Assembly (NCBI GenBank): GCA_947313885.1 | Contig: CAMZNU010000031.1 | Coordinates: 1 to 64,000, forward strand | DNA length: 64,000 bases | Reading direction: 5' to 3' | From: an uncultured Clostridia bacterium | GTDB taxonomy: Bacteria; Bacillota; Clostridia; Lachnospirales; CAMZNU01 | In this document: positions 41,149-46,435 of the stretch, piece after piece | Layout of the letters: the number at the start of each line of letters is the position of its first letter | How positions within the stretch are numbered: position 1 is the stretch's first letter | Translations under genes and position numbers: made by a program | The notes under the pieces: model-generated | Told to the model about the DNA's origin: nothing | The model's database searches: none | The model's input: the letters and a program-made list of their open reading frames with translations, nothing else

Positions 41149-42190
41149 TAGTTTAAAAATTCCTATAAAAAATATATATTATATGCTTTGTTATGGGTGG
41201 GACATATTAGAAGAAAAGGATAATATACGTACAGGCGAAGAAGAGTTTGACAATATATATAACTTACTTGGAAAAATTTATATTAAAAGAGTAAACAGTT
41301 TAATTAAAAGAGGAGTTAAAAAAGAATATATTGAACAAACAGAGGCAATTGGAATAATTAAAGGAAAAATAAATGTACAACAAACAATAAACGGACAGTA
41401 TTTGCAAAAAGGAAAAATAGTTTGTACATATGATGAGTTTTCAGAAAATATTAAGTTAAACCAAATTATAAAAACAACAATTAACATTTTAATAAAAGCA
41501 CCGAAGTTAGATAAAGAAACGAGGGACGAGCTGTTAAAAGTAAGGATATATTTTTCAAACATAGAAGAAATAACATTATCTAATAGATTATTTGGAACAC
41601 CTACATATAATAAAAATGATTCAAATTATAAAATGTTAATAAATATTAGTGAGTTAATTTATAATGGGCTAATTGCAAATGAAGACGGTAATAAATTAGT
41701 ATTTTCGGATTTCATAAAAGAAAATAAAATGCCAACACTGTATGAGAAATTTGTTTTAAATTTTTATAAGGAGCATTTAGACAACAAAACTTATAAAGTT
41801 CATGCACCAATAATAAAATGGAAAATAGATAATGATATGTCAGAAGAAGATAGATCATTATTGCCACAGATGAGAACGGACATAGTAATAGAAAATAAAG
41901 AAAAAAATACCCAACTAATAATAGATACTAAGTACTATTTAAAAACATTAGTAACTAATAATAAAGGAGATAAAGAAAAAGTTAGAACAAGCCATTTATT
42001 TCAAATGTTCGCCTATATAAATAATAGTAAATTTCAGGGACATATAGACGGATTGTTATTATACCCTACAGTGAATAAAGAAATAGATATTAATTTTCCG
42101 ATAGATGGTAAAAACATTAAGGTGACAACTCTTAATTTAAATGGAGACTTTAAAGAAATAAAAAATAAACTATTATCAATTGTAGATTAG
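41135..42190 (+). CDS. mcrC: McrC-like nuclease subunit
   Basis: IPIKNIYYMLCYGW start, PD-(D/E)xK-like TDIVIENKEKNTQLIIDTKYY; overlaps the 3' end of mcrB. Confidence 0.9.
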   Translation: MQMSSSLKIPIKNIYYMLCYGWDILEEKDNIRTGEEEFDNIYNLLGKIYIKRVNSLIKRGVKKEYIEQTEAIGIIKGKINVQQTINGQYLQKGKIVCTYDEFSENIKLNQIIKTTINILIKAPKLDKETRDELLKVRIYFSNIEEITLSNRLFGTPTYNKNDSNYKMLINISELIYNGLIANEDGNKLVFSDFIKENKMPTLYEKFVLNFYKEHLDNKTYKVHAPIIKWKIDNDMSEEDRSLLPQMRTDIVIENKEKNTQLIIDTKYYLKTLVTNNKGDKEKVRTSHLFQMFAYINNSKFQGHIDGLLLYPTVNKEIDINFPIDGKNIKVTTLNLNGDFKEIKNKLLSIVD

Positions 42191-42225: not shown

Positions 42226-42255
42226 TTGATTATGATACTATATATATGATATAAT
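42226..42255 (+). promoter_or_regulatory. Sigma-A-type promoter for RNA1
   Basis: TTGATT - 18 bp - TATAAT, predicted TSS near 42260. Confidence 0.65.
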
Positions 42256-42258
42256 AAA

Positions 42259-42340
42259 TTAACCGTTAAGAGGCGTGGTGCAAGCCCTATTCCTAATATC
42301 TTACATGCGGGAACTTGGATGGTATACCATCCTTTTTTTT
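42259..42340 (+). ncRNA. RNA1: abiF-associated pseudoknot small RNA (candidate RNA antitoxin), self-terminated
   Basis: Interleaved pairings aacc(42261-42264)..ggt(42277-42279) and ggc(42272-42274)..gcc(42284-42286); terminator ggatgg-tata-ccatcc-T8; homologous to 43350-43437. Confidence 0.8.
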
Positions 42341-42356
42341 GTTTAGGGGGAAATAA

Positions 42357-43334
42357 ATGAATGTAAATAAATCTGAAAATATAGATAAACCACTAAATAT
42401 TGATGATCAAATTAAGTTAATGGAAAAACAAGTTGTATTTATAAAAGACGAAGAAAATGATATGAGGGAATTTTTAAATTATGCGGGTTATTTTAGAGTT
42501 AGTACATATAGTAAATACTTATTGTCACATACTAGTAATTTAAAAGAGAAACCAAATCAAGAACTATTATTTAAAGTATATAATTTTGACAGTGAACTGA
42601 GAAAGTTATTTTTTTTATATTGTAAAAAAGCAGAAATACAAATAAAGAGTCATATTGCAAATGCAGTTTCTTTAAAATTAAACGATCCAGTTTTTTATTT
42701 AAATGATGGTTACTATACAAAAGGAAATGATAAGAAGAAAAGCAAGAGTCGTAAAAAGATTAAAAAGGATAAATATAATAAATTTAAAGAAAAAATTGAT
42801 AAAAGTGAAGAAAAATTGCGAAAAAACAATAAAAGGTATCCAGAATTCAAGGTATATCTAAAGGGTGAAGAAAAAGATAAAAATAAAATACCAGCTTGGG
42901 CAGCCTTTTCATATTTTGAATTTGGAACTATAAATAATATATATAAATATCTTAGAGGGGATTTAAAAAAAAGAGTTCTGATTTATGGATATTCAAGAAA
43001 AAAGTATAAAAAAACAACGGCTCTATCTATGAATACATGGTTAGATGCTATTAAAAACTTAAGAAATACTTGTGCACATCATAATAAATTAATAGGTAGA
43101 ACATCATCAATTGTGAAACTAGATAGTGCGGTAGATGACAAAGAGACATTACCTAAAAACACAGATTTATTTTCACAAATTTACGCACTAAAGAAAGTAT
43201 TAAACGTTAAAGATGGTGAAAGTTTAAAAGTAGAACTTAGGGAATGTATAGATAATGCAGAATTTGATATTTATGCATTTAATATTTTGCCAAAAGAATG
43301 GGAAGAATTATTTGATAGAATAAAAAAATTATAA
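42357..43334 (+). CDS. abiF: Abi_2-family (AbiD/AbiF-like) HEPN-type abortive infection protein
   Basis: N-terminus LNIDDQIKLMEKQVVFIKDEENDMREFLNYAGYFRVSTYSKYLL; FDSELRKLFFLYCKKAEIQIKSHIANA; WAAFSYFEFGTINNIYKYL; HEPN RX4H = R236-NTCA-H241. Confidence 0.88.
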   Translation: MNVNKSENIDKPLNIDDQIKLMEKQVVFIKDEENDMREFLNYAGYFRVSTYSKYLLSHTSNLKEKPNQELLFKVYNFDSELRKLFFLYCKKAEIQIKSHIANAVSLKLNDPVFYLNDGYYTKGNDKKKSKSRKKIKKDKYNKFKEKIDKSEEKLRKNNKRYPEFKVYLKGEEKDKNKIPAWAAFSYFEFGTINNIYKYLRGDLKKRVLIYGYSRKKYKKTTALSMNTWLDAIKNLRNTCAHHNKLIGRTSSIVKLDSAVDDKETLPKNTDLFSQIYALKKVLNVKDGESLKVELRECIDNAEFDIYAFNILPKEWEELFDRIKKL

Positions 43335-43349
43335 TGGAATATAATATTA

Positions 43350-43437
43350 ATAACCACTAGAAGGCACGGTTAATGCCCTAATCCAAATATTCTACATGTG
43401 GGGGAGATAAGACTATATGTTTTATCTCTTTTTTTTA
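43350..43437 (+). ncRNA. RNA2: second, diverged copy of the abiF-associated pseudoknot RNA
   Basis: aacc(43352-43355)..ggtt(43368-43371) and ggc(43363-43365)..gcc(43375-43377); shared core gcccta.tcc.aatat..tacatg.ggg; own terminator gagataa...ttatctc-T8. Confidence 0.8.
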
Positions 43438-43460: not shown

Positions 43461-43525
43461 AACTTAATTTAAATGGATGTTTTAAAGAAATTAAAAATCA
43501 TATATTATCCCTAAATAATGAAGAA
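43461..43525 (+). pseudogene. mcrC C-terminal tail relic (duplicate of the 3' end of mcrC)
   Basis: cttaatttaaatgga-tgt-tttaaagaaattaaaaat matches mcrC cttaatttaaatgga-gac-tttaaagaaataaaaaat; LNLNGCFKEIKNHILSLN vs LNLNGDFKEIKNKLLSIVD. Confidence 0.8.
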
Positions 43526-43578: not shown

Positions 43579-46435
43579 ATGACAGAAAACAAAAACTATG
43601 ATGATGAAAATAAAACCTCTAATACTATTAATTACGAGTTTCAAAGTTTAACACCAGTGGAAGATGTTGAAAAAATGGAAGGGTATAACGAGGCGTTAGA
43701 TAATATTTTTAAAAAACCAGAATTAAAAAATATAGCAATAACAGGTGGGTACGGATCTGGTAAAAGCAGTATTGTAAAAACCTATGAAAAAAATAGTGAT
43801 GGAAAAAAAATATGTATATGTATCTCTTGCACAATTTGAAGAAGATGGAGAAACCAAAGCCAAAGCAAAAATAGAGAAAGATAAAACAGAAGACAAAATA
43901 AATGATGCGATAGATGAAAAAGAAGAAATAGAAATAGAAAAAAAGTTAATCAACCAGATAATACACCAGATAGAAAGAGAAAATATTAATCAAGCACATT
44001 TCAATGTAAAAGAACATATGAATAAAAAAACAATGTGGTGTTATAGCATTTGGATAACTATATATATATTGATGATATCGTATATATTAAACCTAAGTGA
44101 AAAATTAAAAATGATAGTAGTGATAAACATAGGTGAACAATCAAAATTAAACTATATTACTTACATTGTAGTAATAGCATTAACAATATTCTTTATATAT
44201 AAAATAATAAAAGCCCAAAAAGAAGGTGGTATTTTAAAAAAAATATCTGTAGGTAACAATGAAATAGAAACAAAAGAAAATGCTCCAGAATCATACTTTG
44301 ATAAATATTTAAATGAAGTAATTTACATATTTAAAAATTCAGAAATTGACGTCGTTGTATTTGAGGATATAGATAGATTTGATAACAAAAGAATATTTAA
44401 TAGACTTATGGAAATAAACAAGTTAATAAATGCAAAAAATAAAAAAGATAAAGAGCCTATAAGATTTTTCTATTTAGTGCGTGATGAATTATTTACAGTA
44501 GATGATAAAACAAAGTTTTTTGATTTTATCATACCGATAATACCCGTAGTACATGGATCAAATGCACATGTAAAATTTAGAAATTTTTTACCTAAAGAAG
44601 AAAATAATAACATTGAAGAAAGGTTTTTAAGGAATGTCTCTTTGTATATAAACAACATGCGAATTATAAGAAATATTTGTAATGAGTATATAATATATAA
44701 AGAGCAATTAAAGGATAAAAAAAGTTTAGAAGAAAATAAATTATTTGCAATGGTAGTTTATAAAAATATGCTACCTGAAGATTTTGCAAAGTTGCAAAAT
44801 GGGGAAGGCTTATTAGTAACATTATTTAGAGAAAAAGAGGAAGAAAGAGAAAGAGAAAAAGAAAGTGCAGAAACAAGAGAAAGAGAAATAAGAGAAAGAG
44901 AACTAAGAGAAAGAGAACTAAGGGAAATAGAAAGAAAAAAAGAATATAAATATTACCCACTATTAAAATTTATAGTTGATAAAGGTTATATAAGTAAAGA
45001 CTATGAAAATTACATAGCATATTTTTATGAAGGTAAATTAACATTTAGAGACGAAGAATTTATAAAAAGTATTAGACGAAAAGACTCTAAACCATATAAT
45101 TACAAGTTAAATAACCCAGAGGGTATAATAGAACTATTATATGATGAAGATTTTAAACAAGATGAAATTTTAAATATAGATCTACTTCTACATTTAGGAA
45201 AACATTATGAAGAAACAAACAAATATGAGAATGAAAAATATAAAAATATTATTGAAGTAGCTAGTAAACGTGGAAACGAATACTTTATATTTAATTATAT
45301 GGACAATCATGTGAATATATGGCTATTCATAAAAAAACTATATCAATTTGATGAAGATATATATGAAAAAATAATAGGTTGTGAAAATAAGAAAGACTAC
45401 TCAAACTATATATATAAAAAAACAAAATATATAATGTATTCAATAATTTTCATGGAACACGAAGTAATAGATATAGAACCAGTAGTTGAAAATTACATTG
45501 CAGAGCATGCACAAAAAGAATATGAATTGTATATAAAATATATTAGAGGTAATGAATTAAAAGGTAGTGAATTAGACGAGTTAGTAAAAAGTAATTACGT
45601 ACCAGATGAGTTTAAAGTTATATTGTTAGACAGCAATGAAGATGCCGAAAATTTAAAATATATTAGTAATACTTTTAAAATATATCAATTGATAAAATTA
45701 GAAAATTATGAAAAAATTGAAAATATTCAATTTTTATTAGAGTTATATTATGAATTTGAAGAAAAAGAAATATCAATAGATACAGAAGAATATGCATCTA
45801 AAGTAAGAAAAACAAAAAAAGACATACTTAAAATAAGTAAAAAAATAAATGAATCTAGAGATGAATTTGAAAACACACAAAAATATATAATTGAGTTAGA
45901 AAATATAGGGAATTATATAAAAGCGCTAGATGATGAAAGTATAGCAATTAATCTCCTAGCATATAAAATAATTAGAAAAAATATAGAACAAATAATTAAA
46001 GGTGATTTTAAATGCACTATGGATTTATTAGAAAGATTAATAGAAGATGGCGAAGTTGATACTAATGATAAGATTAAAATATTTACAAAGAAAAAACAAC
46101 AAAAATATATAAATGTAGAAAAGTTAAGTAGTAAGTTAATGAAAGCTGTAGGTAATAAAGAGTATATGAGTAAAAACAAGAAAGGTTCGCTAAAGGTTAT
46201 TTATGGAAAAGATGATAAATATATTTTAACTAAAGGTAGTAAAATGAAAAATTTGGATGAGACAAGAAAAAAACTATCAGAATATATAAAGCTAGGGAAA
46301 GTAAAAGAAACACAAAGTGAACTAATAGCAATGGAAGAATTAGAATTTAACACTCCTACGGAAGTGGAAAAAGTATTATCGGGAAAAGGCGTAAATGGCT
46401 GGACACAATTTGAAGGTTTAAATGATACTAGATAA
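43579..46435 (+). pseudogene. Large YobI-like P-loop NTPase with TM segments, split by a +1 frameshift in an A8 tract (ORFs 43579-43839 and 43784-46435)
   Basis: ORF1 carries Walker A GGYGSGKSS; ORF2 continues YVYVSLAQFEEDGE... with Walker B-like VVVFEDIDRFD. Removing one A at 43803-43810 fuses them (...NSDGKKYVYVSLAQFEED...). Confidence 0.82.

Follow-up and report, generated by a model that had tools for sequence, protein, structure and literature searches.

AbiF toxins restrained by RNA are the closest described systems. AbiFCd of Clostridioides difficile phi027 is held by RCd22, an RNA that binds it directly and acts both in cis and in trans; the RCd22 transcript ends at a terminator before abiFCd, attenuating the gene, and within its RNQCAH motif AbiFCd needs R202 and H207 for toxicity (PMC12373285). 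The dimer of another member, PbAbiF, is described as carrying two RNAs (PMC12373285, PMC12737573). According to a review (PMC12737573), AbiF has also been reported to be the ancestor of RNA-targeting Cas13, and its RNA a guide-RNA forerunner. In ToxIN and the other classical type III toxin–antitoxin systems, too, an RNA antitoxin is paired with a protein toxin (PMC12373285).

We analyzed a stretch of 64,000 nucleotides from an uncultured Clostridia bacterium (contig CAMZNU010000031.1, positions 1–64,000), referred to below as the window. It very probably encodes a HEPN-RNase toxin, AbiF, together with a small RNA that neutralises it and is encoded twice, by the separate genes RNA1 and RNA2 that flank abiF. 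The locus resembles AbiFCd/RCd22 in its Abi_2 HEPN protein, in an upstream ncRNA with a putative promoter of its own and a terminator before the gene, in two RNA motifs per toxin gene, and in a stem closing over a short hairpin. However, both motifs of RCd22 are in one upstream transcript, whereas here there is one motif on each side of the gene; the RNA sequence is unlike RF03085 (abiF RNA), and the matched part of the proteins shows about 21% identity (phiC2). The two flanking RNA genes may play the part of the double motif in the single RCd22 transcript. Two RNAs per gene would fit both the two RNAs of the PbAbiF dimer and the two motifs of RCd22. As in type III systems, more than one copy of the RNA motif was found at the toxin gene, namely two copies, one on each side and not in tandem. 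The toxin family differs from that of ToxIN, and neither the pseudoknot nor the tandem repeats of ToxI were seen at the locus.

No Rfam 15 family matched RNA1 or RNA2 at any threshold tried. With E values allowed up to 10, RF03085 matched neither the window nor any of 12 related loci that carry these RNAs, and it scored 37.6 bits on the positive control, phiC2; neither RF03085 nor the covariance model (CM) of the new RNA finds the other's members. Judged by eye, the new RNA and RF03085 appear to have in common an outer stem, a short inner hairpin, which is invariant, and a longer internal strand on the 3′ side, whose last letters ahead of the stem are CAAAU and one further base; the new RNA differs in its stem, split into 4 + 5 bp with a 3-nt bulge, and in its length of 48 nt against 37. 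This plan, common to both by eye, likely reflects common descent or common binding. The toxin family is a known one, and RNA1 and RNA2 look like a variant of the AbiF RNA antitoxins unlisted in Rfam. An RNA class that covariation supports and Rfam lacks, tied to a coherent AbiF clade, would widen the set of AbiF antitoxins.

The AbiF protein and its neighbourhood

The gene abiF (42357–43334), preceded by a probable ribosome binding site, AGGGGG (42345–42350), encodes a protein of 325 aa; the gene, this site, both RNAs and their promoters and terminators all lie on the + strand. The protein matched PF07751 (Abi_2) with 115.2 bits against a cut-off of 25.6 (E 5.6e-33) and AbiD with E 3.7e-45. 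Its HEPN R-polar-xxxH motif is RNTCAH (R236–H241), and R236, N237, C239 and H241 are invariant across 17 relatives. The best match in both sequence and fold was PbAbiF bound to its ncRNA (PDB 8vz6): the sequence matched with E 4.9e-13, aligning RNTCAH with RNSCCH, and the predicted model (pLDDT 88) matched with E 7.2e-9 and TM 0.69/0.75, 8vz6 being the only solved structure matched by the model; the two proteins are 19% identical. Profile, HEPN motif and AbiF fold agree in placing the protein in the Abi_2/AbiD-F family.

Genes of McrBC were found on one side of abiF and a frameshifted YobI/Tmn-like P-loop ATPase on the other. The ATPase is present as two overlapping frames (43579–43839 and 43784–46435), which match consecutive parts of PF20693; the split is a frameshift or a sequencing error. 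The 3′ end of the mcrC-like gene (42131–42177) is copied after RNA2 (43463–43509; 47 bp, 85% identical), so that the RNA1–abiF–RNA2 cassette is flanked by direct repeats, as if it had been inserted as a unit. A second, distant AbiF, 23% identical to the window AbiF, is encoded elsewhere in the same genome (contig C8, 75613–76461; loci L010 and L011 of genome G000), and no RNA of the RNA1/RNA2 type was found near it.

Two RNA genes around abiF

Alignment of both flanks of abiF revealed, directly 3′ of the gene, a homologous second copy, RNA2, which had been absent from the earlier note on this DNA. The core of RNA1 occupies positions 42263–42310 (CM score 54.3 bits, supported by covariation) and that of RNA2 positions 43354–43401 (68.2 bits, supported by alignment to the RNA1 side of abiF).

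Genome contigs searched by protein alignment gave no matches; the DNA pattern of the core was used instead and was followed by a covariance model, yielding 125 matches in 97 sources, the weakest two of them partial. Both RNAs were present at 29 loci, and where both cores are full-length (26 loci) the RNA starts are 1066–1096 nt apart. Only the upstream RNA was found in four loci with enough flank (L049, L054, L098 and L101). A protein search of viral contigs yielded two prophages with abiF 57–59% identical to that of the window and an RNA on each side; in both, abiF sits between genes that we named by eye as terminase and portal genes. An RNA-independent sample was obtained by an AbiF protein search of 397 genomes (the family of the host of L115) and of viral contigs: RNA was present on both sides in 8/8 cases, namely five genomes besides the host of L115 and three viral contigs. 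RNA and protein distances over the 26 loci were correlated (Mantel r 0.53 with the upstream RNAs and 0.65 with the downstream ones, p 0.0005), a pattern that is expected of partners but would also arise from shared descent. Weak CM matches from a class-wide scan (E 1e-6 to 1e-2, L032–L043) had no AbiF nearby and look like chance.

The conservation of the −10 element, core and terminator gives good support to RNA1 as a short, self-terminating structured RNA reaching from just 5′ of its stem to before abiF. Its proposed promoter, TTGATT-N18-TATAAT (42226–42255), is present, with TG before the −10. As a single match it does not exceed chance in AT-rich DNA (9 such matches found against 11.5 expected from shuffles); its −10, however, recurs in relatives, since a −10 of at least 5/6 stands at the RNA1 position in 24/34 upstream homologues against 3% of control positions. 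The intrinsic terminator (42317–42340) consists, as reported earlier, of ggatgg-tata-ccatcc (42317–42332) and T8 (42333–42340), and ends 16 nt before the abiF ATG (42357). It recurs in relatives: a terminator follows 34/34 upstream copies against 26% of controls. The hairpin is also conserved in sequence in the upstream copies, as G(A/G)ATGG...CCAT(T/C)C, being found in 32/35 upstream tails against 0/32 downstream tails, and a role beyond termination is possible. RNA2 is preceded by a −10-like TATAAT (43340–43345), 8 nt before the core and without a good −35; a −10 of at least 5/6 was present in 29/32 downstream homologues against 4% of controls, and a clear −35 in 8/32 downstream copies. The intrinsic terminator of RNA2 (43400–43437) is not conserved in sequence between loci. 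Comparison of homologous sequences has shown support for the stem, the two-sided arrangement, the −10 elements and the terminators.

Fold of the RNA core

The core alignment, 48 nt long, is nearly gapless, and supports for RNA1 a bulged stem-loop: P1a, CCRY/GYGG (42263–42266/42307–42310), and P1b, GGAA/UUCC (42267–42271/42299–42303), separated by a 3-nt bulge (42304–42306), would close over a GGC/GCC hairpin, P2 (42272–42274/42284–42286), with an internal-loop strand at 42287–42298. In RNA2 the corresponding elements are P1a (43354–43357/43398–43401), P1b (43358–43362/43390–43394) and P2 (43363–43365/43375–43377). Across 94 distinct homologues, the 5′ CC has its partner at the far 3′ end. The covariation score of P1 was 0.294 in 12 homologues, against at most 0.145 when the stem was slid, and 0.201 in the 94 distinct sequences, against at most 0.092, with six pairs changed on both sides. 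Such changes include core pairs 3–46 (G-C/A-U), 4–45 (U-G/U-A/C-G), 7–39 (G-C/A-U) and 8–38 (A-U/G-C). A structure-free scan of all column pairs ranked 8–38 first and placed 7–39, 3–46 and 4–45 within the top eight; some other top-ranked column pairs share a column with P1 pairs and reflect composition. In 52 distinct abiF-linked sequences, P1a and P1b retain their eight core pairs in 416/416 cells, with repeated compensatory changes; pair 5–41, the innermost at the bulge, is formed in only 24/91 scorable sequences. Partition function calculations gave pair probabilities of 0.98–0.99 for P1a and 0.67–0.95 for P1b in RNA1, and of 0.94–0.99 for P1 in RNA2. The folding energy of single copies was no better than that of shuffles (z from −1.33 to +0.52), and the structure therefore rests on covariation.

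RNA1 had instead been read in the earlier note as an H-type pseudoknot in which AACC (42261–42264) pairs with GGT of GGTG (42277–42280) and GGC (42272–42274) with GCC (42284–42286), a fold that would perhaps be like ToxI. These letters are present and able to pair, and most of 12 homologues could form ACC/GGU if the register is shifted by one; yet no pair of the AACC/GGT helix changed on both sides in the 12 homologues in either of two registers, and its A-U pair fails in 10/12 in the register of RNA1. An interleaved 3 + 3 bp pair of equal quality arose in 545/1000 dinucleotide shuffles of the 82 nt; it arose in 35/2000 random stretches of the AT-rich window, where it is rarer presumably owing to fewer G and C. 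Since the covarying stem uses the 5′ CC and part of the stretch that had been called conserved and single-stranded, that stem and AACC/GGT are mutually exclusive. We regard the H-type pseudoknot as highly improbable; the interleaved helices of a ToxI-like pseudoknot were not supported. Part of the supposedly single-stranded stretch is the 3′ strand of P1, while a conserved single strand on the 3′ side, UCCAAAUA, stands. The supported fold leaves room for the GGC/GCC helix, but this helix never varies, so its pairing is putative. P2, the loop GG and the strand CC are all invariant, which makes the inner fold tentative, and the inner pairing given by RNAalifold differs from the GGC/GCC hairpin. 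With P1 as described, the loop GG (42277–42278) could pair with the invariant CC (42292–42293) to form a small nested pseudoknot, which would refine the bulged stem-loop and leave its proposed function as it is. All 86 of 86 distinct cores have this GG and this CC, and the next pair is G-U in 74/86; the same invariance offers no variation to judge by and may reflect protein contact, and both RNAalifold and the MFE structure favour other inner pairings, so we regard this refinement as possible but rather doubtful.

Role of the RNAs and copies without AbiF

The window protein being an Abi_2 HEPN protein whose model matches RNA-bound PbAbiF, RNA1 and RNA2 are most likely AbiF antitoxins, a role suggested by the characterised relatives. 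We propose that each RNA begins at the A just before CC and folds into a 9-bp bulged closing stem over the GGC/GCC hairpin, with the conserved single strand on its 3′ side. By analogy, one RNA would bind to each subunit of the AbiF dimer, blocking the RNase, and little read-through into abiF would pass the upstream terminator; activation of AbiF by infection or stress is assumed to proceed through loss of the RNA. The upstream RNA might alternatively be a cis-acting leader or attenuator of abiF only, and not a trans-acting antitoxin. Its terminator does lie directly before the start codon, its hairpin sequence is conserved in upstream copies only, and RCd22 likewise attenuates abiFCd. A purely cis-acting role is nevertheless unlikely in view of the second copy 3′ of the gene, which is unable to attenuate abiF, of the orphan copies that exist without abiF, and of RCd22 itself, which acts in trans. 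As an antitoxin usually present on both sides of abiF, the RNA class would offer a clean test of toxin recognition and of the reason for two copies.

Many copies of the RNA had no AbiF in the examined flank. These orphans, among them L018, L019, L021, L068, L077, L114, L116 and L123, lie in prophages and chromosomes with their structure intact: P1 is kept in 97–98% of cells in orphan cores, and terminators follow 46/52 copies of the unassigned class, which includes contig-edge copies, against 20% of controls. A search of whole host genomes (21 genomes for 22 loci, two of which are in one genome; several of the assemblies, being metagenome bins, may lack part of the genome) found no AbiF homologue at E 1e-10 for 21/22 loci, the single exception being a distant AbiF match, while AbiF was found in all six control genomes with paired copies. 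As the orphans show, the link between the RNA and this toxin is not universal. They could be remnants or unrelated regulators, or serve as shields against AbiF, and they raise the question of whether phages protect themselves with the antitoxin in this way. That copies without a cognate AbiF are stand-alone antitoxins disarming AbiF from rival prophages or mobile elements, as a counter-defence or anti-addiction RNA, is a tentative idea to which we give less than even weight.

No common neighbour gene of the orphans was found beyond prophage genes and small groups, one of which we take to be an ORF6N-like family. In two related viral contigs (L128, 934–981; L130, 9964–10011), the place of abiF ahead of the portal gene is taken by one RNA, which comes after genes for a 125-aa protein and, as judged by eye, an RNase H-like protein.
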